Part shown: positions 1,088 to 63,730 of the stretch, piece by piece
Position numbering within the stretch: position 1 is the stretch's first letter
How the letters are laid out: each line of letters starts with the position of its first letter
Assembly: GCA_964036195.1 (NCBI GenBank)
Contig: OZ038459.1
Span: 10,785,206-10,849,205 of the forward strand
Length of the DNA: 64,000 nucleotides
DNA from: Sphaerolaimus hirsutus
Lineage: Eukaryota; Nematoda; Chromadorea; Monhysterida; Sphaerolaimidae
Reading direction: 5' to 3'
Position numbers and translations under genes: made by a program
Notes under the pieces: generated by a model
Seen by the model: the letters and a program-made list of their open reading frames with translations, nothing else
Told to the model about the DNA's origin: nothing
The model's database searches: none

Positions 1088-2947
1088 ATGTCGACAAGTC
1101 TACAAAATGCGATTTTGTATAAATCGCATTTTAAGGTTTTGAATCCAATTCAAGGTCTGTGTGTCCGATTTGGCTCTCTCATGCCGACTAGTGATGGAAT
1201 GGCGCCATGGCGCTGGCGCCCTTTAATGGCGCCAAAGGGCGCCAGAGCCATGGCGCCATTGGCGCTTGGCGCCCTTTTCTCTGGCGCCACCTGGCGCCTG
1301 GCGCCGTTATTTCGAATGGCGCCATGGCGCCCTTGGCGCTTGGCGCCATTTTCGCTGGCGCCAATCTGGCGCCCGGCGCCATTGTTTTAAATGGCGCCAG
1401 AAATGGCGCCAAAATTCCGAGAATAAATGTGACCAAATAGGACATTTTGGACATTTTATCGTAGATCGTTTCACAAAGCAGTCAATGTACCATATTTCCT
1501 TGAAAAAGCCCCCTCGAAATACCCCCAGGTTTTTCGAGCTGAGTAAAAAATAACCCCCTCGAAATATCCTCATTTGGAATAAGGTACCTCATGTACACAA
1601 TGTACATGATGTATTAATCGATGCCAATATGCATCAGAGCCACACATAAGACTACCGTATTTTCTCGGATAGTTCCCCCAGGGAATTATTTTTTCCTCCG
1701 ACTTTTTTGAGGGGGGAACTATTCGAGAAAATACGGTAGTTTGTGTAGCCATCTATCTACGTTGATATTATACATCTAAATATATCCTGTTTTGTCCCTT
1801 TCATTCAGTTTTGGGGATGTAAAAGCCCATCTTCACTACGATCTGTACGAAATTTCTGGGAAAATAATACAACCACCCCTCGAATAAACCCGACCCCACT
1901 CGAAATGCCCCCCTCAACTGTGACATAACTTTGCACTCTATCGAAAATAAACCCCCTATGGGTATTTCGAGGAAATACGGTATAGTTGCGATGTAAATTG
2001 ACAGCCGTTAAAACATCATGTTCATTTCAAACATGATCTACCTTTTTACAGATGGGGGGTGTCGAGTGGGGGTTATTTTTTTCCCGGCTCGCTCAGACCT
2101 TGGGGTATTTCGAAGGGGGGTTTATTTAAGGGGTATTTGGAGGAAATACGGTAACATATTGCTCTTCTAAAAAAGCTTCTGTTATGATATACATGCTAAA
2201 ATATTGACTTTTACCGTTGGAGCCATTTTGGCGCCCGGCGCCATTTTTCCTGGCGCCCTTTGGCGCCTGGCGCCATTGTTTCAGATGGCGCCATGGCGCC
2301 ATTGGCGCTTGGCGCCATTTTCTTTGGCGCCCTTTGGCGCCCGGCGCCATTATTTTGAATGGCGCCATGGCGCCATTGGCGCCTGGCGCCATTTTTCCTG
2401 GCGCTTTTCCATCACTAATGCCGACCGTTAAGTACTAAATATTGACAATAAAATGTCGAATTTTGAATTTTGAATTTCAAATGTGAAAAATGGTACGTCC
2501 ATAAAATCCTATTTGGACAGTGCAAAACATTTTTTGGGGAGCGAAATGGCCATGTAGAGATCTTGTACGCGAGAACATATTTGTTCCCGGTGTTGATGAA
2601 GCTGTCTTATGGTCAATTGATGGACTTTTCGTTGCTTAGAAATCGGTGTCCATGGTGGACTTATCACATCACAATCGGTGTTCATGGTGGACTTATCACC
2701 CAACAAAAAGGCTGTTGAAGGCAGACTTAACAACTTTTATTCCAATACTAAGTGAACTTGTCGACTTCCTGGCTAAATGTTTTCATTTTTCCCCAAAAAT
2801 GTCAAATTTGACACTATGGGGGCATGTGATGTCAAATAGGGGCATGTGAGGTCAGAAAATTTATGGATAATAACCAAAAATGTGCGGGAGTAGCCCCATA
2901 TGACGTTTCCGGGCTACTCCAAATTTTCATATTTTGGATTTGTCGAC
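1088..2947. mobile_element. DNA-transposon-like element with GTCGACAA inverted ends
   Basis: It begins GTCGACAAGTCTACAAAAT and ends in the complement of GTCGACAAATCCAAAAT. Its uninterrupted version is 19853-20388 (about 535 bp); here it is inflated by the nested hAT element 1189-2417. Inside is a short direct duplication around 2648-2698 (a GGTGGACTTATCAC word twice). The superfamily is not determined, because the target duplication is unclear. Confidence 0.6.
1189..2417. mobile_element. hAT-type MITE, GGCGCC-array family, with nested insertion
   Basis: The ends are TAGTGATGGAA and TTCCATCACTA. The element is flanked by a perfect 8-bp duplication, ATGCCGAC, at 1181-1188 and 2418-2425. The mirror arm has the empty site with a single copy (20287-20294). 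8-bp duplications and a YARNG-type terminus are hallmarks of the hAT superfamily. The first and last about 200 bp are dense palindromic GGCGCC words. The middle (about 1411-2214) is unrelated nested DNA with CCGTATTT-type repeats, including a hairpin near 1655-1740. Confidence 0.9.
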
Positions 2948-3450
2948 TTTTAGAATTGCACGCCTCAGTTGTATTTAGCTGATGTCTTCATAATGAAATG
3001 TCATAATTGACCAATAGAAAATTGATAAATACAGAAGTTAATAATAAAATTTTCGGTTGATACTAAAAAGAATGGACAAATTCGATGACACTGTTCCTAA
3101 AAGATTATTAAATTTTCCAATTGACAGTTACACAAAAAAATTTACAAATAAACACGCAATTTTAAATCAATATCTGTCTTTCGCTAGTTCTTCAAGGGTT
3201 TCAACTTCAAGAAAATCTGCTTTTTAAACTTTTATGGGCGCAGTCGGTCCCTATATTTAATTGTGGCGTCAATGTTTAGTATACTCGCTTCTAGGAAACA
3301 AAATTGGGAAAAGTGAATCGCCAGAGCGAAATGTTCCTACGTAATCTTCCTTCACCTATCACTTAACTACTTTTTCGCAGCCAAATAAAGAACGAGCGCT
3401 GAATGGAAAACGGGCAGAATGTCATTGGACTGTTTTAACATACCTACCTA

Positions 3451-3594
3451 CCTTATTCCTCGAAATACCCCCATAGGGTTTATTTTTTCAGAGTGAGAAT
3501 TTTGAGGGGGTAAAACGAAGGGGGAGGGGGTATTTCGAGGGGGGTCATAAATTCATAGTGTCCATTTTGATGGGGGTATTTCGAGGATATACGG
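3451..3594. mobile_element. CCGTATTTCCTCG-type MITE
   Basis: A short element whose two ends are complementary (CCTCGAAATACCCCC left, GGGGGTATTTCGAGG right) with G-rich and C-rich inner segments. The same element sits at 18689-18832 in the mirror arm, so it was inserted before the two copies separated. Confidence 0.65.
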
Positions 3595-3748
3595 TGCCTA
3601 TGTGATTTTGATCTAAAAGTATCGTTGTTTAACAGTTCTAGATGTCAAGTTGTTACCGATATTTTCTTGAATAGCGCATTTGAAAATGTGTAAGGCCCTA
3701 CGGTTTTCGTGTAAATAAATGTTCTGTAGACGATATACCTATTTTTTA

Positions 3749-3768
3749 GCACATTTCAAGGCACATTT
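3749..3768. other. Apparent transposon excision footprint
   Basis: Two copies of GCACATTT are separated by CAAG. In the mirror arm the same 8-bp word (AAATGTGC on that strand) flanks the 2.7-kb element 15837-18524, whose last four bases are CTTG. This arm therefore looks like an imprecise excision product that kept the duplication plus four element bases. Confidence 0.75.
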
Positions 3769-3889
3769 ACACACATCAGCAGTCTATGGGGGCAGCGTCT
3801 ACTTTTTATTGTCTTTAGCCATTTTTAAGGGATTAGCATTTAAGGTTATAACGAGCGTTTTTAATTTGTTGAGATGGGCCCTGTCCGAC

Positions 3890-4939: not shown

Positions 4940-5000
4940 GTATATATCATTTGTAAGGACTAGTTGATGATACCCCCCCTATGTTGATGATAGTTGTTGA

Positions 5001-8008: not shown

Positions 8009-8312
8009 GCGCCTTGCAAAATGCACCGCCGGCAAAATGCCTTGCAGAGCGGTGCGAACGTGCGCGGCCGGTGGCGCAACCACTCTGAGTACCTGCTGTC
8101 CAGCATCGGCCTGTGCGTGGGACTGGGCAACGTGTGGCGCTTCCCCACGCTGTGCTACCAGAACGGCGGCGGCGCTTTCCTCGTGCCCTACTTCACGGCC
8201 ACGCTGTTCATGGGCGTCCCGCTGTTCTACTTGGAATCGGCACTCGGCCAGTTCACCGGTAGCGGGATGAATATCGCCTGGGCCAGACTGTGCCCCGCTT
8301 TCAAAGGGATTG
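8009..8312 (+). CDS. SLC6 transporter gene A, exon 2 (TM1-TM2)
   Basis: The acceptor TTTTTTAG precedes 8009 and a GTTGGT donor follows 8312; phase 0 in, phase 1 out. It contains the SLC6 signature CVGLGNVWRFPTLCY, whose unwound TM1 helix forms the sodium and substrate sites, then TM2 with PLFYLESALGQF. SLC6 proteins import amino acids or amine transmitters using the Na+ gradient. GC content and codon use are high relative to the AT-rich introns. Confidence 0.93.
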
Positions 8313-9307: not shown

Positions 9308-11218
9308 TACACACACTAGTTTTCACCATGACTTCTGTGTGAAAACTCAATTTGGTTTTCACATTGTGACAGCAATGAGGTCAATGAGGTTGTATGATTG
9401 AATTTTTGTGTTTTCCTTTTGTGTAACACACTGATGAAAACTATGGAAAAAATGCACAAACATAAATAAGTTTTCACTGTAAAAACATGGCATTGATAGC
9501 AGTAACTTTTTGTTGTATGTGGTAGAGCAGTTGAAACTGTATCTTTTTGTACATTTTGGTGTTTGCTTGTATTTTGGTTCTTTTTTTCTGTATTTTTTAT
9601 AAATCCATGAAGTAATTTTTATCATTCACTGTTTTGTTTTTGTGAAGTTCCCAGTGGCATACATGTGTTGTTTTTCATTCTCTTTCATTTGGTTGTTGTA
9701 AAAGTGAGCAATAAAGATGCAAAATATAAATAACAAAAAAAAATGTATTTCACATGAGATAATTTTTAAAATAAGATTTACTGAACATGTATCTACAATT
9801 TTTGCACACATTACATTTTTTAGAATGCAATGGTAAACAATTGGGAATAATAAACATAAGCAGGAATGAGTAAATAATTTTTTTGATAATGAAAAATGAA
9901 TAAAAAATCAGCCTCTGCATGCATACAGCCACATCTGAGTTCAATTGAAAGACAAAATCTGTAGAATCACATGAAATTAACTGTATTGAGGTCACAGTCT
10001 CAATTGTTTTAAAAAAATATAAAAAGAAGCATTGTTTTCACTTCATGCAAGCAAAATATGAAAAGTAAGCATTCAATTTTCCTATTTAAGCTGACACAGA
10101 TGAAAACTCAACAAAAAGCAAAGCTAAAAACAGGCAAACAGCTCTTAGGAGTCTTCATCCACTCCAGGATTTGTTCTCTCATTGTGAGGCATCAAGTAAA
10201 TCTTGTAAGCCAGTGCTGATTTCAAGTTTTCAAAAAATTTACAAAAAAACACTGGGTCATATTTATTGTAAAAAAAGTTTACTATGCAGTCACCCAGATT
10301 TTATGCATCAGGTGCAACAGTTTCATTGAAAAAAATGGATTATGAAAACTCAATTGTTTTTTAATTTGAGTAATTTCTTTTTGCCTTTTTCACATGTCAT
10401 GTGACCCACCATTCAATAGAGCATAAAATTCTGTAAAAACCCCCTGCAAATATGAACTTTCTCTGACCATCCAGTGTCTTTTAAAGCTACTTTATCAAAG
10501 TTGGCAAAGCTGTGAAAACTCAGGGCACATGGCTACATTTTTGGCGACATTTGGCGACATTGTGGTGACACTACTGGCACTGGTGTCGCCATGGTGAAAG
10601 TTTTCCACAGTTGATGCCCACATGTGAAAACTGTCACCATGTCACCATGTGTCGCCATGTCGCCATGGGCAGGGTTGGTTTTAATAAAATTCTTTTTACT
10701 AAAATTGTATTTTATTTTTATTAAAATTGTATTTTATTTTTATTTTATTCTTCAATTTTCCATTTTATTTTTATTTTATTCTTCAATTGTTCATTTTATT
10801 TTAATTTTATTTTTATTTACTTTTTTAGTTTGTGACCAGGATTGATTTAAGTAAAATTCTTTTTACTAAAATTGTATTATATTTTTATTAAAATTGTATT
10901 TTATTTTTATCTTATTCTTCAATTTTACATTTTATTTTTATTTTATTCTTTAATTTTCTATTTTATTTTTATTTTTTTTCTGAGATTTTGCCAACCCTGG
11001 CCATGGGGTATGGTGACATGTTGCCATTCAGTTTTCACATTATGAATAAATGTTGAAATTCAGTTTGCACATTATGAATGCATGACAAGAAACTTGCCAA
11101 ATGCATGTCCACTTGTGGAAACTACAAAACACATTGCCATACCATGTGTAGACTGTATGCCATACCATTTTTGCCATTTCAGTTTTCACACCAGTCATGG
11201 TGAAAACTAGTGTGTGTG
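9308..11218. mobile_element. CACTAGTTTTCACC-ended DNA element, about 1.9 kb
   Basis: It starts ACTAGTTTTCACCATGAC and ends with the complement GTCATGGTGAAAACTAGT near 11210. GTTTTCACA and GTCGCCATG words are repeated throughout, mostly toward the ends. No coding frame with known motifs is present. A hAT-type element (10670-10999) is nested inside. The left 650 bp are also seen, inverted, after the N run. Confidence 0.6.
10670..10999. mobile_element. hAT-type MITE, CAGGGTTGG ends, TTTTATTT array
   Basis: It starts CAGGGTTGG and ends CCAACCCTG with a perfect 8-bp duplication GCCATGGG on both sides (10662-10669, 11000-11007). The interior is almost entirely repeats of TTTTATTTTTATT and its variants. 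Confidence 0.88.
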
Positions 11219-11245: not shown

Positions 11246-12152
11246 CAGAGTTGTTAGAATTACTAAACTTTTTTCAAAAGTATATGTAAATGTAAGTATT
11301 TGATTTTTACTCACCACAAAGTATAGAAAATGTAAAATACTTTTTTTACTCATACTCATGTGTAAATGTGAGTAAAATGTAAAAGCGAGTACTTTTCCCC
11401 TGGAAAACATATTTTTACACTAATTTTTACATGTGAGAGTGAGTTTTACACCGAAAGACACAATACCGTATTACCTCGAAATACCCCCATGGGGGTTTAT
11501 TATTTCGTCAGCAAAATTTGAGGGGGGGGGGGTTAATTTGAGGGGGGGTTATTCGAGGGGGGGGGGTTATTATTTCGTCAGAAATTTTCGTGAAATTCAT
11601 AGTAAAGATGACGCTTTTTCTTACACAAAAACGGTAATAAACGTGAGAAAAATAGGTTATATTGGGGCTATAGAAGTACATCTGTACACAAATGAGCGTA
11701 TAAGTGTAGCTACGATGCAAATAAGTAGTAAAAAATACATCATATAAATACGTTGCATACATGATGTACATCATTCCGGAGGGGGGGTATTTCGAGGGGG
11801 GGGGGGGTATTTTTTCCCCAGCCCATTTTGAGGGGGGGGGGGGGTAATTCGAGGGGGGGAGGTTAAGTCAAGGGGGGGGGATAATTCGAGGTAATACGGT
11901 ATATGTCATTTTTTAGTGATTATTTTGTATTTTTTAGAAAAATGATATGATTTCTTCAAAACTGTCTGATTTTAGCAACAGAAAATTGTGATTTTAGCCA
12001 CAAAAAATACATTTTCTCTATACACGTGTACTTTTAAAATGTACGCGTAAAAGTAAGTACATTACTTTTTTCAAAAGTATATGTAAATGTATTTACCGCG
12101 TACTCGCGTACGCGTATTTTTGAGTAAATGTACGTACATTTTAACAACTGTG
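11246..12152. mobile_element. hAT-type MITE, CAGAGTTG family
   Basis: It runs from CAGAGTTGTTA to TAACAACTGTG with the 8-bp duplication CAGTTTGC at 11238-11245 and 12153-12160. Both ends are rich in AAAGTATATGTAAATG-like words. A CCGTATTACCTCG element is nested at 11466-11899. Confidence 0.88.
11466..11899. mobile_element. CCGTATTTCCTCG-type MITE with TA duplication
   Basis: The ends CCGTATTACCTCG and CGAGGTAATACGG are exact complements and are flanked by TA on both sides. The inside holds long runs of G in GGGGGTTATTCGAGG-like units. Confidence 0.75.
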
Positions 12153-15836: not shown

Positions 15837-18524
15837 ATTCCCGGAAACCTTCCCTCCGTGGACATCTTACCTTCTGGAGGTATGATGTCCAGGCGGACAT
15901 CATATCTCCAGGCGGACATCATATCTCCAGGCGGCCAGAAAATGGCACCGCACCGCACCAGCACCGGTGCCATTCGGAAAAAATGGCACCGGCACCGAAG
16001 GGCACCGGCTGGTTGCCGGTGCTAGCACCGAAAGGCACCGCACCGGGCTGGAATTTCCGAAGTAAATATCGGGTAGTTACTCAGTGGCCACACCTTCGGA
16101 AATGCATAAATCCAGGAATTTTCAACCGATGTTGATGGTTGAGCACTTAAAATAATCAGAATGATGTGGCGATCACTTTTATAGAGCAATTACAATTATT
16201 ACAACTGAAACATAAAATATTCAATTCACTAGAAAGCCCATAGCCACTATTGTCTACTGATCAGGAGTCGTTGCTGTACAGAGAATGTGACTACTAAAAA
16301 ATGGCACCGCACCGCACCGGCACCGGTGCTATTGTCATGAATCCGTGTATTCAGCTGTTTTTTGTCTACACAATTCAGAGCGTTTTTACCACACTTTCCC
16401 TCTATCTCCACTTCACTGGCCGCTTGCCGCTGCAGTGCACTGCACTGGGCCCGGAGGTCCAGATTATAAACGCGTGTGTAAATTTGAAGGAAACGTGTCT
16501 GAAGACGGTAGGTCTTTCAGAACGTGCAGTGAACCACTCGGTGGCTCACGCTGTTCCGTTTCCCGCAGCACGCACAGCACCTACACTTAGCACAAGCAGC
16601 GCGGCAATTAGAGCAGTTGTTAATTAGCTAACTTAGGGAAAACAGTTAGTACTTAGTGCTAATACAAAAAGGGGTCCAAGTTGTGTTGAGAAGAGAGTTT
16701 ATTTTTTAGGGCGATGGAAGAACAGTAGCGGCAGAGTAGAAGCAAAATCAATTTCCGTCGAATCGAAGAATTGGGTGAAAAACAACAATTTCAGCTACTT
16801 ATAAAGCAATTGAAACTACCATAATCAACAGGAATAAAAAAGCTAAAAAAAGGCATAATATTACGTAGGTACATAATCACTATCAAATCACATAAGCTCT
16901 GATGTAAATACTTAGTAAAATCTTGACACATAGCTACCTATGAAAAGAGTACTAATTAAGCTAATAAAAAGAGGTGGTACCAATTAAGAACAGCTAACAA
17001 CAATAATAAAAAAGGCTTCATGAGACATGGGGCTTAATGTACAATTTACTACATCACTTAAAACAGCAATTATCTACTTCCATAATTACCTACAAATCCC
17101 TACTTAATCTAACATAATCAAGAACAGATAACAACGCAGTGCAATGCACAATTACAAAGAACGGAATGAACAAAGTATGGACAAAGGCAATTACGGCGTC
17201 ATAAACTAATACAGCGAATCAAGCTAACAAGTAATTAGACAATTAATACAAGCTTACATCTAATGTTAATTAATTAAGATACAAGGCGATTAATCAAGCT
17301 CATGGAAATGAAAGGCACTGGCGTGAAACAATATATACAATGATTTCTACATGTCACATGGAAACTCTGTGTGGGGGCTTTGTATTCATAAGTTACGGTA
17401 GCTAGCAAAATGCTCGCGGGCGCGAAATGCTTATCACCTCCAACCCCGCGACCCACTATTGTGACTATCCGGTCAGCTAGCGCCCGTGAGAAAGGTCTCA
17501 GCCCGATGGCCACACCCTTCCGAGTGCGAGGAGATATTTATGCTGGGGCGGCGGAAAAGTATTTTTTGGACTGCAACTTGTCACTTGGGGCGTTATCAGA
17601 AGCTGTTCCTACCACCCACCGATACTAGATGACGCACGACAATCTAGTCAACATGGGGAGGAACGCGGAACAGTATTTATTTTGGTATTTTTTGAGTGAA
17701 ATTCATTGTTCCTGGCTTCCGGTCGCCACCTACTTACCAGTCGTCAGTCTCCGCCTCTGCCCAAAGATAAGTAAAGGGTGGAATTTGCTTTAAACCGCCC
17801 AGAAAGTCACAACAGTGTGCCGGCAAACTCAAAGGCGGCCACACGTTGCGCCGCGGCATTTCAAAGTGAAAAATGTGAAATTTCCCCTCTCACCTTATGC
17901 CATGTGGAATGTGGTTACACTTAAGCTAGACATAACTTAGCTGACTTTACTTAAATAGATCTGGCGCACAAAAATAGTAATTAAAATTGGGGGGTAAGGG
18001 AACGAAATTGTGCAGAGCACTACAACCACTATAAACATGGTGAACTCGGTCGGCCAGTGTAGCGGCGTCGATCTTGCGATGCAGTGCTCTGTCAGGGTAC
18101 TGCGCAGCCCACTGCGTGGCCGTGCATGCCGCGCAGGCCCCGTAGCCGTCGAAAAGCTGCCGAAATGTCTGAAAAGGTTTTATCAAATTTAATTTACAAA
18201 ACACATAGCAGTTTACATTCCGTGAATTATTATTGCATTTGGTTGTCTAAAATTTTGTGGGGTGGTGTTTTCCCATCGTAAAAAACGCTCTTACACTATT
18301 CTGAAAAAAATGGCACCGGCACCGGCATGGCACCCCTGACGATTGCAATGGCACCGCACCAGCACCGGTGCTGGTGCCCTTCGGTGCCCAGCACCGAGGC
18401 ACCGGTGCCCCGGTGCCTTTACATCACTAATGTTGACTACCATTGGAGGTATGATGACCGAGGAGAGATGATGTCCCCACGGACATCATCTCTTCCGGAG
18501 GCATGATGTCCATGGAGGGCCTTG
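15837..18524. mobile_element. 2.7-kb DNA transposon with GGACATCAT subterminal arrays (composite)
   Basis: It is flanked by the perfect 8-bp duplication AAATGTGC (15829-15836, 18525-18532). Both ends carry CCCTCCRTGGACATC and inverted GGAGGTATGATGTCC words repeated several times. Inside are GGCACCGCACC-type arrays at about 15936-16050 and 18300-18429, the latter ending TTTACATCACTA like a hAT terminus, so a second element is probably nested. The mirror arm lacks it and retains a footprint at 3749-3768. Bases 16050-17940 hold AT-rich DNA with small ORFs that I do not recognise; a transposase could not be identified. Confidence 0.8.
17947..18172 (-). CDS. Possible helix-turn-helix exon inside the transposon
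   Basis: On the minus strand a good acceptor (AAAACCTTTTCAG) precedes 18172. The open frame contains YGACAACTATQWAAQ followed by YPDRALHRKIDAATLADR. The pattern of a helix, Y/F-P-[DN]-R, H and T/L resembles the small DNA-binding domain of the DUF4817 type that accompanies transposon-derived proteins in arthropods. No start codon or partner exon was found, so this is a guess at the end or middle of a transposon-encoded protein. Confidence 0.35.
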
Positions 18525-45117: not shown

Positions 45118-45340
45118 TAGTGATGTAAAAAGCGCCAGGACTTTGGTGACATGGCGCTTTTTACTTTGGTGCTAGCGCCAAGCGCCAGCGCCAGGCATTT
45201 TTGGCAAATTAGCGCCAAAAGCACCATGACGCTTTTCATGGGCATGGCGCCAAGCGCTAATGTCGCCACAGCGCCAAGCGCCAAAAGCGCCATGGCGCTT
45301 TTTGCTTTGGCGCTGGCGCCATGTCGCTTTTACATCACTA
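45118..45340. mobile_element. hAT-type MITE, GGCGCC family, in gene C intron 1
   Basis: TAGTGATGTAAAAAGCGCC to GGCGCC...TTTACATCACTA, with CTGTCGAC / CTGACGAC as the 8-bp duplication. The allelic copy is 63499-63730. Confidence 0.88.
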
Positions 45341-49061: not shown

Positions 49062-49162
49062 GTTATAGTCACATAGTTATTACCTATTTCCATTTACTTC
49101 AGAGGTTGGGATGGTTGGATGTATTATAGGGTTCAAATGGTACCACTTTTTTGGGCCCGGAC

Positions 49163-50078
49163 TAGGGTGTCAAATTTCCGTTTCCGTTTTCCGTTTCCGC
49201 CTTTCCGCAGAAAAATTTTTTACCTTTTCGTTTTCCGTTTTCTGGCAGCCGAAAAAAATTTACCTTTCCGTTTTCTGGCAGCCAAAAATTTTTTACCTTT
49301 CCGTTTTCCATTTTCCGGCAGCTGAAAATTTTTTACCTTTCCGTTTCCGTTTTTCTGGCCCATTTTTCCGTTTTCCGGCTGAAAAATTTTTACCTTTCCG
49401 TTTCTGTTTTACCAGGCCATTTTTCCATATTCTGGCTTGATTTTCAGTTTTCTGGCATTGTTTTTCCAATATGTATTTATCTTTTTCCACTATGGTGTTT
49501 TTAACTACCAGATTCTTCTGTCATTCATAATTTTTATCTGTATCCAAATCTGTAAAAAAACACGAAGTAATTTTGGACACATACTTTGCAGTCCGCTGAG
49601 TATACTTTTTACTGTTCAGTTACATCAAAGTTCACTTTTGCTAAATTCTTATTGTTGTTGTAGTGTATTTTTGCTACTTTTTGATGATTTTTTGTTGGTT
49701 CACTTAAGCTTGAACTACAAGTGAAGTTACTGGCATGATCCATAGTTGCAGAATGTACAGCTACCACAATCAAAGCCAAACAGGCAAACCTGCATGCAGG
49801 TTTTCCTTCTGCAAATTTGTCTATTACCGTGCAAATTTCACTTTTTTTTCTCCAGTTCCGTGAAAATTTCGCTTTCCGTTTTCTGTTTTTCGGCATTTAA
49901 TTTTTCTTTTTTCCGTTTTCTGGCCGATACCTTTCCGTTTTCCGTTTTCCACTGAGTGAAATTTTTTACCTTTCTGTTTTCCAGCAGAAATTTTTTTTTA
50001 CCTTTCTGTTTTCTGTTTTCCTTGAAGTGAAAAATTTTTACCTTTCCGTTTTCCATAAAAAAATTTTTTGACACCCTA
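49163..50078. mobile_element. hAT-type MITE, TAGGGTGTC ends, TTTTCCGTTTTC array
   Basis: TAGGGTGTCAAATTTCCG to TTGACACCCTA, with 8-bp GCCCGGAC / GCCGGGAC. Ends are packed with CCGTTTTCTGGC words; the middle (49500-49830) is AT-rich and unique. Confidence 0.85.
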
Positions 50079-50265
50079 GCCGGGACCGGGACCAGAAATT
50101 TTTCTTATCGGGACGGCACCGGGATCATGACTGGCATATTTTTTATTGGGACCGGGACCAGGACAGGGACTGGGGTGTCGGGGCCGGCACTGGGACCATG
50201 ACCACCTCAGTCCCGGAATTTTGCCGAACCATCTACCGGAACCGGGACTGCCATATCAGGAGCAG

Positions 50266-51014
50266 AACGTTTTCCAAAAATACCATTATGTTTTGTTACG
50301 TTTTCCTGGCACAATTACCCGGGTACCAGAGAAAACGTAAAAATTCAGCTACACGAAACCACGCGTCTGTGAAATGTGGTCTATTACCACAGTCACATAT
50401 TGATTTTGTGTAAATAGTTATACCAGTGGACGTAAATAATGCCAATCATGTTGTGTAATTGTCTTTTTGACAGTGGAAATATTGTAAATGTAATTAATCA
50501 ATTGTAAATGTAATCAATGTGTCAATTTTGGAATATGAACAATGTGAAGGAATGTGTTACCTATAAATACAAGCAGAAAAAAGGAATGTGTGTATGTATT
50601 TGTGTTGTGGATTATACAATCATTCACTGTTTTGTTTTATTCATTTCCTGCTGAAGTTTTGCAGTAATGTAATTTTTGATGAAGAAGTGTGCTAATCAAT
50701 GAGTTTGCTAACCTGTGACGCCGTCAGCACCAACATTTGTAAACAAATAGATTTTTTGTTTGCTATGAAACGTAAGGGAAAAATGTGAATGGAAATTATG
50801 TATAGGTACATTGTTGAAAATGTCACAACAATGGTCTTTTCAGAAGCTCTGCTCATATGGGGCACTTCTTGAAATTTTTACGTTTACGTTTTTTTTACGA
50901 ATTCCTTGGTATTTTAAAAATACCTTACGTTTTAATATTTATATTTTAGATTTGGAAAAGGTATTTACGTTTACGTTTACGTTTTCCAAAAATACCAGTA
51001 TTTGAACAACTCTG
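50266..51014. mobile_element. CAGAGTTG-family MITE, right end at the PLE junction
   Basis: AACGTTTTCCAAAAATACC at left and the terminal CAACTCTG at 51007-51014. The same order of sequence is seen at 1-872 and 28468-29758. The middle (50410-50800) is AT-rich with no gene. Confidence 0.7.
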
Positions 51015-53572
51015 TTATTCAGATGGGTTATGGTAGGTTTTCATATGTTGGAGAAACACGCCGGAAATTCAAAATTCGTATTGGAGAACATTTAAGAAGT
51101 TTTGCTAAGGGTAAATTGCAAACAGAACTTGTCAAACACTACTCTCTAACTGGACATACTCCCACCTTCAAAATACTTGGTACTTATAGTCAAGATACTC
51201 TATTTGAAATGGAAAAAGAATGGATACTGATTCTGAACAGTGCATTTCCTTTTGGATTAAATACAAAAATTCCGGGATATGGTACAATAAAAAGAGGTAA
51301 CATCCCTAAATTTGCCAATAGTCCCTATTTTTGCAGACCAATTAAGAGGAACCATGCTGATAGAATTAGAAATAAAAGGAACAAACGTAAACGCCATTCA
51401 ATTGATGAAATATGTGAAGCCCTTATGAAAATATCAATTACTGATTACAAATTTGACAAAGTTCTTACAATTTTAAGAAAATGCAAATTACAAGAACTGA
51501 AAGAAATGCAGAGAAAGATTGGATTAATTCATAGAAAATTGTGTGATGGTTCTACAGAACTAGCAATGGCGGTTTTGGGGTTTTTAACAAGCAAAGGGGA
51601 TTTGATCAAACCAGCACCTGTTGATGTTAGAAAAAGGCACTTTTTCACATGTAAATTCCCAGGCTCGCTTATGGACTGTATCAGACCAGCTAAATTTGTT
51701 AATAGCAAAAAATTTACAGACACAATTGAAACGGATTGGCTCAAATTTAACAAGATTGTAGTTTGTTTCACCTATGACAGACCACTTTCACATTTATTAT
51801 GCAACCATAACAAACTATTTAAGAACACATCCGCCAAAGATATAGAAGAAATGTTGAGAGCTGATTGTCAATGTGCTTCATCACCCTTTGTTGACAACTT
51901 TCATAAGCATATTATCACAGGTGATCTGAAAGTACTTCAAGATGATTATCTGGAAAAAGCACTTTGCCTGGGAGCTAAATATAGATACACCTCTGATAAC
52001 ACTAAAAAGGGATGTATTGACCACATTGAAGAGTTGTTGCTTAAAATATGCTCAAAATTCAATATTACGCTTAACGAAGACATTAAGCATGACTTAAACA
52101 GATTTGTCACAAAAAGAACCAAAAATTGGGTAGACAGCAGTCCAGACAATTTAGATATGGAATATATTAGAGCCGCATGTCGTACATTGCATGATAGGTT
52201 CATGATTGCACCAGCAGACAAAGCTACTAGCAATCTTATCATTGTATGTAGAAAATTTGCATGTCAAGCTATGTGCTCAGAACTAGGTGTTTCATGGTGT
52301 AACAATGTTATGCAATGCAAAGGGAATGCTACATATACACCTTGTGATGGCACCGAATCTGAAATTATTACGAGACAGAATAAAATATTAGACAACTTGT
52401 ACATCACCCCAAATACAGTAAAACAAAGCCTGCCCAGACTGTTCCCTATACCTAAAATGCATAAAAACCCACCTAAATTTCGCTTTATTAGTGGAGGTAG
52501 TTCTGCACCTATTAAACCAGCGGCTACTATACTGCACAGAATCCTCAGACATTTTAAAAGACATATTGAAAATTATAGCTACACAATGTCTGATGGTACG
52601 GATACAAGTTGCATAGCCTACTGGCCATGTGAATCCTCCTTAGAAGTGGAAGAATTTGTAAATAAAATATGTAAAGGTAACAGAGAGGTCAGATGTTATA
52701 GTGGTGACTTTTCCACACTGTATCCCAACATGTGCCATACAGAAATTTTACGTTGCATTAATAAGCTGGCAGAAAAATGCTTTTTCAACTCGCACAAAAA
52801 GTATCTGATTGTTGGATATCGTAACTTATGGTATAGCAATTCACCACATAACAGGCTACTCTCTATGGATAAAGAAAGTGTCATTAACCTTCTCAAAATT
52901 GTACTCTCGGAATCCTACCTGGTTTTTTCGGGGCAACTATTTAGACAAACATCAGGACTACCTATGGGTTGTGCCTCTGCCCCTAGCATTGCATGCGCCA
53001 GTCTAATGTGGAGAGAATTTGAATGGTATATTAATAACAGAGATTTACACAACAAAATGTTCAGATGCTTCCGATATATTGATGATCTTCTAATATGCTA
53101 CAAAAATAATTGTGGGTTTGATGTGGAAAAAATAGTTAAGGAAATTTACCCTGCCAATTTACCACTCAACAGAACTGACAGGAATGGCTGTGTTACTGAT
53201 TTCCTAGATATGTCAATTGACTTCGTTAACCGTAGTTGGAAAATTTACGACAAAAGATTAGATTTCAGTTTCAGATGTATAAGTGCTACAAACTATAGGA
53301 GCGCACAGGCTATGAGCGTTAAGAAAGGTTCTTTTTTTGGACACTGGTTGAGAGCCATGAGACTCTGCTCTACATGGGACAATTTTGTCAACAGCATTTC
53401 ACCTATTATTAACAGCCATGTTTTAAATGAATATACTGCAGACACGCTCTTTGAAGTTGCCATGAAATGTACTAGTAAATATAGAGATTTACTCTGGAAA
53501 TTCGAACTTAAAATAGATACAAAAACAGTAAATATAATTAGAAATTTAGTGACTAAGCAAAATACTAGGTAG
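51015..53572 (+). CDS. PLE polyprotein: GIY-YIG endonuclease + reverse transcriptase
   Basis: Numbered from the open frame at 51002, the nuclease occupies about residues 10-95: SYVGET (Y15-G17), catalytic-type Arg in KIRIGEH (R26), H46, and Glu in FEMEKEWI (E71/E73), closing with PFGLN. A linker with a Cys-rich DCQCASSPF block and a PADKAT motif (near 410) leads to the telomerase-like RT: PKMHKNPPKFRF, motif A GDFSTLYPN (near 567), motif B GLPMGCASAPS, motif C YIDD (near 691). The C-terminus (about 120 residues after RT) has no second GIY-YIG. The few residues before 51015 come from the flanking MITE and no genuine start codon is visible. No stop or frameshift interrupts the frame. Confidence 0.9.
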
Positions 53573-53574
53573 AT
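51015..53574 (+). mobile_element. Penelope-like retroelement with N-terminal GIY-YIG (Naiad-type)
   Basis: A single open frame encodes an endonuclease followed by reverse transcriptase. The 5' end abuts the terminus of a MITE and lacks the very start of the nuclease, so it is probably 5'-truncated. The 3' end lies soon after the stop at 53572. Canonical Penelope elements have GIY-YIG at the C-terminus; the N-terminal arrangement is what has been described for Naiad and related permuted clades. The intact 2.5-kb frame suggests a young insertion. It is absent from the matching part of contig 2. Confidence 0.9.
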
Positions 53575-53659
53575 ATTTCACCCATAGATACCGTAATTAA
53601 ATAACCCTGTGTTTCAAGTAATACGAATAAATTAGGCGGTAAATTCAAAATCTAAGGCG

Positions 53660-54100
53660 CACATATAAGGGGCGTTGCATACTTTCTCTCGCATTCCACT
53701 TAAGTATGCTGAGAGCCGGTAGTAAAAGGTCCCGAATTTCTGCAAACAACAGCGCCGACGACATGTCCGAAGAAAACTCTACACCCACCGCCGCTGCCCC
53801 TGTAAGTTCGTAGGTGTAGGGTTAGGATGGTAAGGTGTAAGGAGAGGTGGTCAGTACTGATGAGACCCTGCCACCTCTCTCTAAAAAATTCCCTGTCTAC
53901 TGAAAAGGGTCGAAACAGGGTGTAGGCTTGGAGGTGCTGAGGGAGTGCACCATGTGACTTTTCCAAGCCTTTTTTGCTTACCTTTCTATCTTTTCCAGCC
54001 GTTTTTTCAATTTCACAATTTCATACTAAGTATGATGTCCGCCGCGTATACCCAAGTCATTGAAAAGCGGCTTTTTTCATCCCTTATCAGTACCAACATA
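53660..54100 (+). other. Promoter-like sequence and one or two exon-like frames inside the hAT element
   Basis: CATATAAGGGGC (53665) precedes an ATG at 53707 that opens MLRAGSKRSRISANN ... TAAAP and ends at a GTAAGT donor after 53800. About 200 bp later TCTTTTCCAG leads into an open frame (SMMSAAYTQVIEKRLF). This could be the 5' remnant of the element's own transposase gene. No domain is recognised. Confidence 0.4.
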
Positions 54101-54318
54101 AAATTCCGGGACCGGGACTGGGGCATCATACTGAAACCAGGACCGGGACTGGCATATTTGTTTATTGGGACTGGGACCGGTACCGCCTCAGTCCCGGAAT
54201 TTTGCCAAGCCATCTACCGAGACTGTGGTCCCGTTTGAACCCTAGTTGGATGTTGATGAAGGATTAAACCTTAAAGAACATGTTTGACTTAGATGGAAAA
54301 AATTTATTGTGTTTATAC

Positions 54319-54889
54319 TAGGGTGTCAAATTACCATTTTCTGCAGGCAAATTTGTGTTTTTGTTCCGTTTTCTGGCCACTGAATTTTTTTCTGTTTCTC
54401 TTTCCGTTTGCCTTCCACTAAATTTTTTTGTTTCTGTTTCCGTTTTCCAGCTCATTTTCTGTTTTCCAGCTAAATTTTAAGTTTTTCTGCTTTTTATCCA
54501 TTTTCTGGCTCAATTTTCTTTTTTTTCACCTTTTTCCATTTCCTGGCTCAATTTTCTGTTTTTCCGCCTCATATTCCCTATTTCCAGCTCAACTGTCTGT
54601 TTTCTCTTTCAGCCAAACTGGTAAACATGCATGCAGGTTTTCAATTATGCCAAAAAAATCCATTTTCCATGAAATTTTCAGCAATTTTTACAATTCCCAG
54701 CAAATTTCAGCAAATTTTTTCTATTTTCTGGTAAAATTTCAGCAAATTTTCCTGTTTCCATGCGAATTTCATTTTTCCGTTTTCTGACATTGTTTTCCGT
54801 TTTCCGCCAAGTGCACAAATTTTTCCGTTTCTGTTTCCATTTTCCAGCAAGTGCAAAAAATGTTCCGTATAAATTTTTTTGCCACCCTA
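54319..54889. mobile_element. hAT-type MITE, TAGGGTGTC family
   Basis: TAGGGTGTCAAATTACC to TTGCCACCCTA with GTTTATAC / GTTTCTAC as 8-bp duplication. TTTTCCGTTTCTG and CATTTTCTGGC words throughout. Confidence 0.85.
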
Positions 54890-55598: not shown

Positions 55599-55998
55599 TA
55601 GTGACGAAAAAGCGCCATGGCGCTTTTGTGTCTTGGCGCGATAATGCTGTGGCGCCATTGGCGCGATTATGCTGTGGCGCCATTGGCGTGATTATGCTGT
55701 GGCGCCATTGGCGTGATTATGCTGTATCGCCATTGGCGCGATTATGCTGTGGCGCCATTGGCGTGATTATGCTGTGGCGCCATTGGCGTGATTATGCTGT
55801 ATCGCCATTGGCGCGATTATGCTGTGGCGCCATTGGCGCTTGGCGCTATTTTTGTTTGACGCCAGGAACAAATTTCCTGGCGCTGGCGCTGGCGCTCGGT
55901 GCTAGCTCTAAAGCAGAAAGCGCCATGGCGCTTCTGCCGTTTGGCACCATTTTGCTCTGGCGCTTGGCCCCGAAGTCCTGGCGCTTTTTCCATCACTA
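55599..55998. mobile_element. hAT-type MITE, GGCGCC family, with internal minisatellite
   Basis: 8-bp duplication ACCACAAC / ACCACAAT. The left half is a tandem array of about nine 25-bp units (GCGCCATTGGCGTGATTATG core, 55635-55830). Confidence 0.88.
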
Positions 55999-57111: not shown

Positions 57112-58748
57112 TAGTGATGGAAAAGCGCCACGGCGCTGGCGCCTGGCGCTAGCGCCAAAGCAAAAAGCGCCATGGCGCTTTTGGCGCTTGGCGCTAAAAC
57201 GCTCTGGCGCCATTGGCGCTTGGCGCCGGGATCTCAGAAAGCGCCATGGCGCTTTTGGCGCTTGGCGCCATTTTCTGGTGGCGCTATTGGCGCCTGGCGC
57301 CGGCATTTTTAATGGCGCCAAAAAAGCGCCAACCTTGATTATAAAAATAGCGATGATATACTCCGGTTACTTTACACCTTGCACGCGTGGTTCCCGCTGG
57401 AAGTGTGCCAACAATGGGTTACGCGTGCGAGTTTCATAAAAAGATGACAAAATTGATTGTTGTTATAATGTTGTTCATTAACATATTCACATCGATGAAT
57501 TTTTTCACTTTTTTATGGAAATCGCATGATTTAAAATTCATTGGCACGCTTCCAGCACAAGACATAAATCAGTGCGAGGGCAGAGTATCATGTCCGCCGA
57601 GTATACTGTGAAATTGAAACTCCAGTTGATCAACTTTGAGGGCGACTGAATAAATTTTGATTGATGTAAGAGTGTTGTAAGAGGTGATTTATTATTTTAC
57701 AATTTTACATTACCGTATTTCCTCGAAATACCCCCCCCCCCTCGAAATACCCCCTCCCCCTCGAAATACCCCCCTCAAAATGGACACTATGAACTTATAA
57801 ACCCCCCCCCCTCGAAATACCCCCCCCCCCAAATTTAGTGTATAGAGAACGTAAATGACAAAGGCTGCGGTTTGTCATCCCGGCAATGCAGAACACACGT
57901 TTAAAACGATGACTCTGTTATGTGAGAACAGTGTTTGTACTTTGTCTACACATTTATAAATGTCTTTAGAGTCTTATAAATGGCGATTTTTGTTGCATTT
58001 TTCGACGTCTGCGTACGTTTCAGACGACATTTTAGTACTGGGATTTCAAAAAATTTCTGGCGAAATAATAAATCCCCCTCGAAATACCCCCCCCCCCTCG
58101 TTTAACCCCCCCTCAAAATTCTCACTCTGAAAAAATAAACCCCCCAGGGGTATTTCGAGGAAATACGGTATTTATAAAAGATTGATTAATATTAGGAGAC
58201 AACTTTATTTGCATTGAATTCAATTAAAGGTGTAAAATGGTGCTCTTTTCAAAGGTCCTCATATTTGTTTAAATACCTTAGTTCTCACAAAAATGTACTG
58301 GTATTGTATCCACCTTTATTCATTTTAAGCCTCAACTGATAAACATTGGTGATTAGATACAAGAGATGATTGATTTCAAGAAAATGGATTTTTTCTAATC
58401 ACTGAATCCCCTTACAGAAGTTCCCTTCCCCCTTACATGGTTGATTGAGCTTAAATGGCCAAAGTTAAATAGACTACATCGACATCAGCAGTACGTCACA
58501 GTTATGTATTCATAACTCTAAAAACGAATTGAAGAAAAAAATTTTGGCGCTGGCGCTATTGGCGCTTGGCGCCATTACCCTCTTGCGCCATTGGCGCTTG
58601 GCGCTCAGGTCCAGAAAAGCGCCATGGCGCTTTTGGCGCTTGGCGCTATTTTGCTCTGGCGCCATTGGCGCTTGGCGCTGTAAGTAGGAAAAGCGCCATG
58701 GCGCTTTTGGCGCTTGGCGCTAAAAGCCTGGCGCTTTTTCCATCACTA
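57112..58748. mobile_element. hAT-type MITE, GGCGCC family, with nested elements
   Basis: TAGTGATGGAAAAGCGCC to GCGCTTTTTCCATCACTA with perfect 8-bp TCCATGAC (57104-57111, 58749-58756). GGCGCC-dense ends at 57120-57330 and 58545-58740. Nested is a TA-flanked CCGTATTTCCTCG element at 57713-58168. Contig 2 lacks the insertion. Confidence 0.9.
57713..58168. mobile_element. CCGTATTTCCTCG-type MITE with TA duplication
   Basis: Ends CCGTATTTCCTCGAAATA / TATTTCGAGGAAATACGG, TA on both sides. The core (57840-58060) is shared with 29100-29220 (TCTTATAAATGGCG). Confidence 0.85.
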
Positions 58749-60331: not shown

Positions 60332-61051
60332 TAACGATGGCTTTTCGGAAAAAAAGTATTTAAATTTTTAAGTATTTTTTCTAAAGTGACTTTTCGAATT
60401 TTCGAATTTTTGCCCAAAATACTTTTTGAATTTCGAATTTAGTTTTCAAATTTTCGATTTTTTGGGTATTTCAATTCAATTCAGAGTGTTTACTCGGCGC
60501 GGACTCTTCAAGTCAAATGCAAGTAAAAATAACAACATACCCCCGTCGGCTACCCTTAACGCGGTCCTAATAGGTGAGATTGGGTAGTTTTCGAATGTTT
60601 TGGGTAGTTTTCAAATTTTTTTGGGTAGTTTTTTGATTTTTTCAAACAGTTTTCCAATTTTTTGGTCGAAAATTAGAGTTCAAGCTTTAAATGTAGTATT
60701 TGGGTGGGGATCATGTTTGTATAACTTTTTAAACCTTATTTTCACAGTTGTCTAGCATTTACATCAATCAAAGTTTATGGACCAGTTTATGATATCTTTG
60801 TTTCATTCTCTTATCATTACAAAAACAGGGAAAGACAATGAAACAAAACATTATCAAAATCAATGCCAATACATACAAATCATCTGTAGTTACTGCACAC
60901 ACTTTACAATTCTCTCAAATCATGAAGTCTTTTCTAATCTTTTGAAAAAAATCGATTTTTATGTGTTTTTTTCACCAGGTGCTCAAAAATTATAAAAGTA
61001 CAAAAAATTTTGACAATTTCCAAATTTTCCAAACTTTTTTTGCCATCGTTA
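60332..61051. mobile_element. hAT-type MITE, TAACGATGGC family
   Basis: Allelic copy of 40293-41006 with the same 8-bp CTGGTATC on both sides (60324-60331, 61052-61059). Confidence 0.9.
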
Positions 61052-61547: not shown

Positions 61548-61980
61548 ACATTTCATTTCGATGTCTTTAATTTGTGCTTCACCAAAATACAGAACCACGC
61601 ATGTTTGGTGACTTCAAAAACACTTTGACATACTTCCAGTGTCCGGAACGGATCAGTTTACAGAGAAGGCTTCTGCAGCCATTCAAATTCAAACGTTACA
61701 TTTTCTGGCGCGGTTTGACTTCAGCCGTCCGCCGCTAGTCAACTGATTTCACTTCCCATGAAACGTGTAAGTGGAAAAGTGCACCTAAAAACGTGTAAAA
61801 TGCAGCGCTGCGCCCAAATCCGCCCAAACAGCTGGTTCCATGAAATTAGTACTTGGAAATTAAGGAAGGTTAATTTCTAGACAAAAGTTGGTGTGTTCCT
61901 ATGCAAATGTATTGTCAAGCGACGAAGAGAATTTTATAACTTTTCGAAATTGAATTTCGATTTGCTCATATAAAATGTTA

Positions 61981-63286
61981 AACAGCGTTCGGATCAGGTC
62001 CGGCAGTCAGTTTCTGACCTGACTGCTGTCGCCATAACTCCCGCTGTGGTGGGAATTAAGAGATGAAAATTGGGTGGGACGTAGCCGACATTCCCCCCCT
62101 ACTATACTCTAACGCAGGGGCGACGGCGACCCCCCTAAGTGTGGGTCGCCGTATACGCGCAAAAATTTTAACAGAATTTCGCTGTCCGCGTCAAGTCCGG
62201 CACCCAGTGGTTTTTCAGAAATGCGGACACGAAATAGCTGAAATTTTGGGGGGTTATCGTCAACATCCTGTGGCACCATCGACTCACCAAAAGTGTCGCT
62301 CACTGCGTATACCGCGCTGTTTTTTACAGATACAGTGTACGCATCAGGTCCAGGAACAACTTGCGTTTCACCCAGCCAAATTCACTTTAAATATATGTTT
62401 TATTAGACACTTGAAAAGTTGGTTTAGGATGCCCTCTAGGGAAGGGTTTAAGGTATAAAATTGCATAAAAAAACCTTACCCCAAAAATGCCCCACTAAGG
62501 AATTTTAATGGGGGCGAATGTGATGAAGTCATTTATGACATCATCACCATACAAATTTGTACTGTGATGATGTCATAGGTGATGTCAGAACAATCACCCG
62601 CATTAAAATTCCTTAGTGGCGCATTTTTGGGGCAAAGTATTTTACGCAACTTTATACCTTAAACCCTTACCTAGAGGGCATCCTAAACCAACTTTTAAAG
62701 TGTCTAACAAAAAAAATATTTTTTAAGTGAATTTTTAGGATGCAACTGTGGGGGCATTGCTAAAATATCGCTTAACAGGTAACTTCACTGCATTGTACAG
62801 TATCGTATGGGTCTGTAGAACTGTAAAACTGCATTAGATGACTGCATTGAGCATTTTTGAAAAAATTTATAGGGTGCCGGACCTGATGCAGACAGCACAT
62901 TTATTAAAAACGCGTTATACCTGCTAGCGAAACCTTTGGTGGGTTGCCGGCGCCCGCCATTTAGTGTACAGTAAGGGGAGGGGTGTCGGCTATATCCCCC
63001 CAGTTTCAGCTTTGTCCTGTCCGCGTTTCTGGAGTGATGGCACCCGAAGTGATGAAAAACCACTGGGTGCCGGACTTGACGCGGACAGCGAAATTCTGTA
63101 GAAAATTTTGCGCTATACGGCGACCCACAGTTAAGGGGGTCGCCGTCGCCCCTGCGTTGGAGTATAGTAGGGGGAATGTCGGCTACGTCCCACCCAAATT
63201 TCATCTCTTAATTCACCCCACAGCGGGAGTTATAGCGCCAGCAGTCAGGTCAGAAACTGACTGCCGGACCTGATCCGAACGCTGTT
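61981..63286. mobile_element. 1.3-kb fold-back DNA element with TA duplication
   Basis: Starts AACAGCGTTCGGATCAGG and ends with the complement, TA on both sides (61979-61980, 63287-63288); contig 2 has the empty site at about 44907. The outer inverted repeat is about 250 bp (including CGCTGTCCGCGTCAAGTCC against its complement at 63063-63085). A second inverted pair (62390-62520 with 62580-62705) nests inside. No transposase. TA duplication suggests Tc1/mariner-type mobilisation. Confidence 0.88.
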
Positions 63287-63422
63287 TATTTTGATATTTA
63301 TAGAACTGTTTACGTACAGACGCATAGGTACATACACTTTTTGGATCGTTCTATTTTTTGTTACTGTTATTTATCTATCAATCCAAGAGTGAATTCAAAA
63401 TTTCAGGTAAATTTAGAGAAAA

Positions 63423-63477
63423 ATGAGCCAAGAAACTCTCAGCAACGAGAAGCTAACATCAGGCGAAAAGAAAGCAG
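63423..63477 (+). CDS. SLC6 gene C' exon 1
   Basis: 55 nt, one amino-acid change relative to 45042-45096 (SDEK to SNEK), same GTAAAA donor. Confidence 0.8.
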
Positions 63478-63498
63478 GTAAAATAAGCGACTGTCGAC

Positions 63499-63730
63499 TA
63501 GTGATGTAAAAAGCGCCAGGACTTTGGTGACATGGCGCTTTTTGCTTTGGTGCTAGCGCCAAGCGCCAGCGCCAGGCATTTTTGGCAAAAATAGCGCCAA
63601 AAGCACCATGACGCTTTTCATGGGCATGGCGCCAAGCGCTAATGTCGCCACAGCACGATAGCTCCAAGCGCCAAAAGCGCCATGGCGCTTTTTGCTTTGG
63701 CGCTGGCGCCATGTCGCTTTTACATCACTA
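63499..63730. mobile_element. hAT-type MITE, GGCGCC family (allelic to 45118-45340)
   Basis: Same ends and same 8-bp CTGTCGAC / CTGACGAC duplication, with small internal indels. Confidence 0.88.

Follow-up and report, generated by a model that had tools for sequence, protein, structure and literature searches.

In-register replacement of a repeated terminal word among sibling classes of hAT elements in the nematode Sphaerolaimus hirsutus

A 64,000-nucleotide stretch of the Sphaerolaimus hirsutus genome (C15:10785206-10849205, contig OZ038459.1; referred to below as the window) contains many hAT-type transposable elements that carry, close to their termini, arrays of a short repeated word. In the family with CAGAGTTG ends, these arrays exist in three homogeneous versions, AAACGTA, AAGCGTA, and AAGTGTA (abbreviated AC, GC, and GT after their two core bases), which replace one another in register at the same sites of homologous ends. 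We put the probability at about 70% that these are transposase-binding arrays whose word switched along with the specificity of the transposase. From the sequence, we infer that the words are bound by the transposase via a BED finger and that a change of specificity drove the switch. An earlier note on this DNA had proposed that its element families diverged by word replacement, and inside the CAGAGTTG family this is strongly supported by the in-register changes and the three homogeneous alleles described here.

The switch can be seen in the window itself. The same note had singled out one member as switched from AAACGTA to AAGTGT, and this is real in the element at 34050-34825 and represents a large subfamily genome-wide. 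When this element is aligned with the AAACGTA copies of the window, most of the sequence between the words is kept, and the 13 aligned word sites are AAGTGTA in 12 cases (3 of them beside alignment gaps) and AAGCGTA in 1. Changes fall in 23 of 26 core columns and in 0 of 60 other word columns, compared with 45 of 210 non-word columns. In contrast, the decayed ends at 31863 and 20990 contain mixed words (AAACATA, AAATGTA, ATACATA, and AAATATA), which is the picture of neutral decay and not of a concerted switch.

The same three alleles account for most occurrences of this end context in the 348-Mb genome. The pattern GGTATTTTTGGAAA-NN-GTAA-NN-GTAA-NN-GTAAAT has 3659 matches, while its reversed control has 0. 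Homogeneous triples number 1345 for AC, 880 for GC, 872 for GT, and 1 for AT, with the three alleles together making up 3097; in the first 100 of the 3659 matches, counted by eye, 41, 25, and 24 are homogeneous AC, GC, and GT and 10 are mixed. Complete elements were collected from 60 class loci lying within the initial 26 Mb of a single contig. In 61 sequences, 56 R-end matches yielded 45 complete elements (11 gave none), in which the 8-bp target site duplication (TSD) is perfect in 43 and has one mismatch in 2, a TSD with at most one mismatch having been the selection rule. The aligned set consists of 43 elements with a length of 450 to 1400, and the window copy that reads GT/GT/GC was assigned to GT. 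Only 7 members represent the AC class, because its loci were selected by another pattern. Each aligned element has 13 to 19 words of its own class allele over both ends. In the terminal 180 bp, AANNGTA words are AC in 96/122 cases in the AC class, GC in 248/278 in the GC class (a further 22 are GT), and GT in 283/286 in the GT class.

Comparison of the class consensuses localizes the differences to the word core. The core columns differ at 30/30 between AC and GT (15 sites), at 15/30 between AC and GC (15 sites), and at 15/32 between GC and GT (16 sites), while the other word columns differ at 0/75 in each of the three comparisons and the non-word columns at 51/212 (24%), 46/213, and 28/216, respectively (Fisher test of core versus non-word columns, P = 6.8e-8 for AC-GT, 4.7e-7 for AC-GC, and 1.9e-4 for GC-GT). 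Nor do the arrays vary freely within a class: with the seed triple excluded, word divergence is 1.6% (AC), 0.8% (GC), and 2.4% (GT), whereas the rest of the ends diverges by 9.2%, 10.6%, and 5.5%. All three class consensuses also contain AAATACC, a second word that is as well conserved as the first (within-class divergences of 1.6, 1.1, and 2.6%), which suggests that it is a second recognition module. AAATACC is absent or rare in a third CAGAGTTG subfamily, which is described below. The element interiors are largely unrelated between classes, matching in 0/65 and 0/85 pairs between AC and the other classes and in 7/221 GC-GT pairs, compared with 3/10 (AC), 65/78 (GC), and 136/136 (GT) pairs within classes; since only 3 of 10 AC pairs match, the AC interiors are themselves diverse. 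A tree of 215 non-word columns gives an AC clade (7/7, support of 0.999) and a GT clade (19/19, support of 0.819), with GC between them.

The placement of the words corrects the earlier note in several respects. It had described interiors packed with words, and this is not so, nor are the arrays evenly spread: nearly all words lie within 200 to 300 bp of a terminus. In the AAACGTA, AAGCGTA, and AAGTGTA classes, 96/97, 253/253, and 286/292 words are within 200 bp of an end, and in pooled copies of other families, 262/262 GCGCCA words (8 copies), 202/206 AACGGAA words (10 copies), and 70/70 AAATTCGAA words (7 copies) are within 300 bp, the 4 remaining AACGGAA words being near 374 bp. The note correctly stated that words occur in both orientations; in the three CAGAGTTG classes, however, 80 to 87% of them face the same way along the element (84/13, 217/36, and 235/57), and all do so in 49163-50078 (15/0) and 10670-10999 (13/0). 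Each family was also said to have a private word, and several of these words had been partly misread. The TAGTGATG word is actually GCGCCA, with GGCGCCA and AGCGCCA subclasses, and the TAGGGTGTC word is AAACGGAAA. Pooled TAACGATGG copies do not support GAATTTTTC and give AATTCGAA instead; ATTCGAA occurs 72 times in the terminal 200 bp of 7 copies versus 5.9 expected, an enrichment that is visible only on pooling and not in the single elements at 60332 and 40293. In the CAGGGTTGG family, TTTTATTT is low-complexity sequence in the window element, and its enrichment is weak. Word enrichment as such is not specific to hAT elements, and some control segments score as high as or higher than several elements through the C-runs of another repeat.

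That these are hAT-type elements with terminal inverted repeats (TIRs) and 8-bp duplications, as the note had claimed, is borne out by a mechanical TIR and TSD scan of the window combined with checks of each element. The window contains 12 exact-TIR pairs having a TSD with at most one mismatch, whereas 20 Markov-resampled windows and 6 shifted-TSD controls contain 0, and a chance origin of the pairs was therefore rejected. The shared ends of the families are 8 to 13 bp. Target sites of the 45 CAGAGTTG-family elements lean to (G/C)TnnAnAC, which is close to the nTnnnnAn preference of Ac-type hAT elements. The hAT dimerization domain PF05699 matches 28 times in this genome versus 0 times in 14 control genomes, and many of these matches fall inside complete elements with family ends and TSDs (Table 1). 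A further element, L091, matched by the C terminus of L064, belongs to the AAGTGTA class and has 16 words and a perfect TSD. In a Pfam scan of 6 C termini, 5 exceeded the PF05699 cutoff, and that of L091 scored 18.6 versus a cutoff of 21.4. The remnant at 29364-29447 in the window element 28468-29758 has 72% identity over 29 amino acids (tblastn, E = 4e-5). For the TAGTGATG and CAGGGTTGG families, none of the PF05699 matches was found within a complete element (L069, L070, and L087). The VANDAL elements of Arabidopsis, which are Mutator-like elements (MULEs), have a MULE transposase and a 9-bp TSD, whereas the elements here have an 8-bp TSD and a hAT C terminus. Based on the features tested (8-bp TSD, short TIRs, and PF05699), the arrays and their elements belong to the hAT superfamily.

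The note had named three outcomes that would refute a binding-site role (evenly spread arrays, free variation within a family, and no autonomous hAT with the ends and word), and none was seen where the data bear on it. As to the last, transposase C-terminal pieces are present in copies of the AAACGTA and AAGTGTA classes and of the TAGGGTGTC, TAACGATGG, and TAGGGTTC families, and C3:40743-46748 is a putative autonomous hAT of the third CAGAGTTG subfamily. It is a 6,006-bp CAGAGTTG element with the TSD CCTTGGCG on each side, split BED-finger exons, and a hAT C terminus, and its ends are 91 to 95% identical to those of the window element 42982-43798. The best solved relative of its transposase is Hermes (E = 8e-12, via the C terminus), and a DNG motif was seen by eye in one exon. 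No hAT-related Pfam match was found in the middle exons. A query made of the BED and middle exons also matched two further loci: L098 on C6, where a TAGGGTGTC miniature inverted-repeat transposable element (MITE) has split a related transposase, and L099 on C1, which has no word clusters nearby. The MITE at L098 (60-588) is thus a case of one hAT family interrupting another, in a transposase gene related to that of the 6-kb element. One scan of viral contigs for an AAACGTA array found nothing.

Several observations weigh against the view that a switch in transposase specificity rewrote the words. By subtraction, 561 of the 3659 triples are mixed or other. The AAGCGTA class is impure, each copy having 1 to 4 words of another allele (0 to 1 in the AC and GT classes), and the sixteenth GC-GT site, at the R end, is AAGTGTA in the GC consensus just as it is in the GT consensus; words of the third subfamily are more mixed. 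The tree is midpoint rooted, with no outgroup, and the direction of the switch is inferred. Since the copies are not independent, what they document is about two switches, each involving 15 sites, and not thousands; the thousands of copies in the CAGAGTTG family reflect few switch events, perhaps two. On the protein side, the zf-BED match of the 6-kb element, whose exons were spliced by eye, is weak (E = 0.001, 19.5 bits versus a cutoff of 20.6). Full-length AAACGTA, AAGCGTA, and AAGTGTA elements were not found, and because the query with BED and middle exons matched 3 loci only, the AAACGTA and AAGTGTA transposases are known as C termini only and the AAGCGTA transposase is unseen. In Hermes, moreover, ~70% of activity remains when the left-end repeats beyond 50 bp are mutated, and BED domains did not bind the right end (PMC10368747). 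Since inner repeats can be dispensable in Hermes, selection on the words may act on targeting within the genome and not on catalysis.

A purely mutational origin would have methyl-CpG decay and random drift change the words, followed by amplification of the resulting founders. The step from AAGCGTA to AAGTGTA turns a CpG into a TpG, and amplification from a few founders accounts for homogeneity between copies. However, the word CpGs lost between GC and GT (15/15) have all become TG and none CA in word orientation, while 5/7 other CpGs are kept; this would need a mutator restricted to these word positions in both orientations. The step from AAGCGTA to AAACGTA involves no CpG change, and AAACGTA under CpG decay should give AAATGTA, of which the genome has 1 homogeneous triple. 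Decay and drift also fit poorly with the unchanged word columns outside the core and with the mixed words of decayed window copies, and the explanation is disfavored to the point of being barely credible. Homogenization within elements by tandem duplication and gene conversion has in its favor that some words stand in 6-bp tandem triples, that TAGTGATG ends appear internally repeated by eye, and that VANDAL motifs evolve by tandem repeats (PMC5735166). Most CAGAGTTG words, though, are single sites in nontandem, alignable sequence at both ends, with spacing and flanks conserved across the three classes, and conversion tracts would need to be word-sized (~7 bp). We disfavor this origin and regard it as very improbable: the register is kept in nontandem flanks and despite unrelated interiors, which is a poor fit to CpG decay and to tandem homogenization alike.

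The words could also act as self-complementary DNA, forming foldbacks or hairpins, and not as protein sites, since some words form inverted pairs and there are palindromes (for example, GGTATTTTTAAAAATACC). With 80 to 87% of CAGAGTTG-family words pointing one way, and all 15 in 49163-50078, most are unable to pair with one another, and on word orientation alone we disfavor a hairpin function, which has the lowest probability that we assign to any explanation. A different protein partner is unlikely but deserves more weight: the words would be targets of another element-encoded protein or of a host protein (an anti-silencing factor or a repressor), and the switch would result from a silencing arms race of the VANC kind. 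VANC binds family-private arrays of short motifs in the noncoding DNA of VANDAL elements, and the divergence of VANC is paralleled by that of its motifs (PMC5735166); BED and Hermes domains have often been domesticated as DNA-binding proteins (PMC8097297). Against this, the words lie at both termini, where hAT transposases act, and keep their register, whereas in VANDAL elements the motifs are intronic or upstream and evolve through tandem repeats (PMC5735166). These points weaken the VANC-like explanation, the 6-kb element having been read for transposase exons only.

If the arrays are transposase-binding sites, each would serve one hAT family as its subterminal recognition region. The family's own transposase would bind a 6- to 9-bp word, most likely through an N-terminal BED zinc finger, and the many copies of the word (often 13 to 50 per element) in the last 200 to 300 bp of both ends would provide the avidity to find and pair the ends, which are just what nonautonomous copies (MITEs) would retain. 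A transposase lineage that shifted its specificity by a base or two would then impose selection that rewrites the words in place. The CAGAGTTG family would have gone through at least 2 such events, each changing a single base per word across 15 sites; AAGCGTA would be the middle form (AAGCGTA <-> AAACGTA and AAGCGTA <-> AAGTGTA), with AAATACC unchanged. A wider version of this idea, which we offer only tentatively, is that families speciate by stepwise recoding of such a distributed address via an AAGCGTA hub, leaving the old MITE swarm unreadable, that AAATACC is held by another domain, and that the same process lies behind the TAGGGTTCAAACG words CGGGACC, CGGGATC, and CGATATC. If true, word switching would let a family escape its parasitic MITEs, or the repression that they cause by titration, the MITE swarm being a competitor for transposase.

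By analogy, the arrays appear to work like the subterminal repeats of Ac and Hermes. Ac/Ds of maize likewise has a short TIR and a hexamer repeated in the terminal ~200 bp, which in Ac is bound by the transposase, and Ac makes an 8-bp TSD. The bound Ac repeat, AAACGG (PMC3260210), is contained in AAACGGAAA, the word of the TAGGGTGTC family. Unlike the elements here, Ac/Ds has a single word, Ds copies vary in hexamer number, and no in-register word alleles are mentioned in the available excerpts of that source (PMC3260210). Hermes of the house fly, the closest solved relative of the third-subfamily transposase, also has asymmetric ends with repeats concentrated at the tips. Its BED domain recognizes AAG(T/C), ~220-bp ends are needed, and the two ends have 17 and 14 such motifs (PMC10368747), so that whether the arrays are overgrown, as the earlier note put it, is in part a question of degree. 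Hermes repeats 2 to 7 at the left end are antisense and repeats 1 to 5 at the right end are sense (PMC10368747), and this placement of the inner repeats in one absolute orientation parallels the CAGAGTTG family. AAG(T/C) is contained in AAGTGTA and AAGCGTA and not in AAACGTA. Unlike in Hermes, three word alleles of homologous ends are present here in one genome.

The nearest published parallel that we found is the VANDAL MULE group of Arabidopsis, in which family-private arrays of short motifs in noncoding transposon DNA coevolve with an element-encoded protein, VANC, and in which subfamilies have motif types one base apart (C-type and T-type), as the word classes do here. VANDAL and VANC belong to another superfamily and another protein, and their motifs change via tandem repeats, in contrast to the fixed-register replacement at termini that we observe; the CAGAGTTG family does not show tandem-repeat change. 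From the protein side, proteins with BED and Hermes domains bind diverse 8-mers, and four hAT proteins have motifs that are matched in the subterminal regions of their own elements (PMC8097297). In CGGBP/ZBED and hAT DNA-binding domains, 8-mer specificity is readily changed and includes CG-containing and AT-rich words; the excerpts of that source describe no matching set of changed element sites (PMC8097297). Among the matches listed from the open-licence PubMed Central literature, none describes hAT ends in which words were replaced in register, although this does not prove that such a report is absent.

The unusual part is therefore the in-register, one-base recoding of a distributed set of sites in three sibling classes that include an intermediate. 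How a protein and many scattered sites can change together is an old puzzle, since any single altered site should hurt. Here a single genome contains three homologous sets of sites separated by one-base steps, the intermediate set persists as 880 exact triple matches, and the order of steps, the tolerance of mixed arrays, and the matching protein change become directly testable. The classes also form a natural series of hAT ends, possibly orthogonal, and they link the hATs of animals with a view drawn from VANDAL and VANC, in which private addresses are the means of transposon diversification.

Word replacement behind a constant TIR, though not necessarily in register, is also strongly supported in the TAGGGTTC family, by a survey of the word next to the terminus and by the word counts of complete elements. 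The word that follows TAGGGTTCAAACG, in a search pattern with one C fixed, was scored by eye in the first 100 of 7645 matches as CGGGATC in 47, CGGGACC in 38, CGATATC in 5, and other in 10. Complete TAGGGTTC-family elements have the corresponding arrays: CGGGATC x25 in L030, ATATCGA x30 in L072, and ATATCGA x27 in L071 (TSD with one mismatch). The window pair of this family at 49127/54244 is a single interrupted 5.1-kb span with no clean TSD, but genome-wide the family itself is real. Word types are less sharply separated in the TAGTGATG family, with AAGCGCC as the next word in ~2/3 and GGCACC in a few of the first 100 of 5592 matches, counted by eye; reversed controls in this survey gave 42 and 40 matches.

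Table 1. Terminal-array elements of the window (window coordinates) and genomic loci with a transposase piece
Feature	Position or locus	Words and content	TSD and basis
TAGTGATG element	1189..2417	GGCGCCA/GCGCCA x53, all <=250 bp from termini	ATGCCGAC, perfect; word position profile
TAGTGATG element	41862..42788	GCGCCA x46	CTCGGCAT/CTCGGCGT, one mismatch; profile
TAGTGATG element, AGCGCCA subclass	57112..58748	GCGCCA x44	TCCATGAC, perfect; profile; ends aligned with 1189 and 41862
Short TAGTGATG element	45118..45340	AGCGCCA words; near-copy is 63499-63730	CTGTCGAC/CTGACGAC
Short TAGTGATG element	63499..63730	Near-copy of 45118-45340, identical flanks	Element check and sequence reading
TAGTGACG/TAGTGATG element	55599..55998	GGCGCCA and AGCGCCA mixed	ACCACAAC/ACCACAAT
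CAGAGTTG element, AAACGTA class	28468..29758	14 words, 1 interior; transposase C-terminal remnant	GTCTCTGA, perfect
CAGAGTTG element, AAGTGTA class	34050..34825	AAGTGTA x15, AAGCGTA x1, AAACGTA x0	GTTTATAC, perfect
CAGAGTTG element, third subfamily	42982..43798	ACGCGTA/AAACGTA words	CATCGTTG, perfect; ends match C3:40743-46748
AAACGTA-class element	1..872	Cut at left edge of window	Alignment
AAACGTA-class element	50268..51014	Truncated left end	Alignment
Decayed AAACGTA-class end	31863..31992	Mixed words AAACGTA, AAACATA, AAATGTA, ATACATA	Alignment
Decayed CAGAGTTG end	20990..21145	Mixed words; used as contrast	Alignment
Third-subfamily CAGAGTTG ends	11246..11396, 30271-30420		Alignment; 89%, 78% identity to end of 6-kb element
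TAGGGTGTC element	49163..50078	AAACGGAAA words (AACGGAA x15, single orientation); sits in TAGGGTTC element	GCCCGGAC/GCCGGGAC, one mismatch
TAGGGTGTC element	54319..54889	AACGGAA x6	GTTTATAC/GTTTCTAC, one mismatch; profile
TAGGGTTC element, probable	49127..54244	GGGACC words; broken by element at 49163 and other insertions	No clean TSD
TAACGATGG element	27058..28438	AATTCGAA-type words, both ends	ATAATATC/GTAATATC, one mismatch; pooled word
TAACGATGG element	60332..61051	Word not standing out in single copy	CTGGTATC, perfect; pooled word
TAACAATGG/TAACGATGG element	40293..41006	Word not standing out in single copy	CTGGTATC, perfect
CAGGGTTGG element	10670..10999	T-rich; TTTTATTT x13, one orientation; weak word enrichment	GCCATGGG flanking each side
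TAGTGATGTAAAG end	18290..18429	CGGTGC/GGCACC words	Complete genome copy L082:322-2361, TSD with one mismatch
CAGAGTTG elements with AAACGTA and transposase C-terminal piece	L064, L067		
TAGGGTGTC elements with AACGGAA and transposase piece	L061, L062, L065, L066, L080-L082, L085, L088		
TAACGATGG elements with transposase piece	L073, L074, L076-L078, L084, L086		
TAGGGTTC element with transposase piece	L071	ATATCGA words	

The two short TAGTGATG elements at 45118-45340 and 63499-63730 are nearly identical and have both an imperfect TSD and flanks in common, which probably means that the locus was duplicated and not that two insertions occurred. An CACTTCAC/GTGAAGTG array at 27840-28110, within a TAACGATGG element, may be a nested element that has a word of its own. 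Another type of repeat, with ends CCGTATTT..CTCG, TA flanks by eye, and CTCGAAATACCCC-like words, is found at ~1660-1990, 29000-29335, 31990-32450, and 57715-58170. Its copy near 1660 has ATAGTTCCCCC in place of the CTCGAAATACCCC-like word, and word exchange may thus also occur in this TA-targeting family.

The window also contains exons of a sodium:neurotransmitter symporter. A large inverted duplication (arms 9311-9742 and 12965-13396, 99% complementarity) is flanked by near-identical symporter-like open frames at 8009-8392 and 14316-14699, and one of two assembly gaps, which are 200-N runs at 12558 and 48082, falls within it (that at 12558). A probable reverse transcriptase frame of a non-LTR (long terminal repeat) retrotransposon lies at 5418-7175 on the minus strand (RVT_1, E = 2e-29). 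On the plus strand, 50936-53572 is an 878-amino-acid open frame with a reverse transcriptase match below the cutoff (RVT_1, E = 1e-4) and, by eye only, a GIY-YIG-like stretch toward its N-terminal side, which suggests a Penelope-like element with an N-terminal endonuclease.

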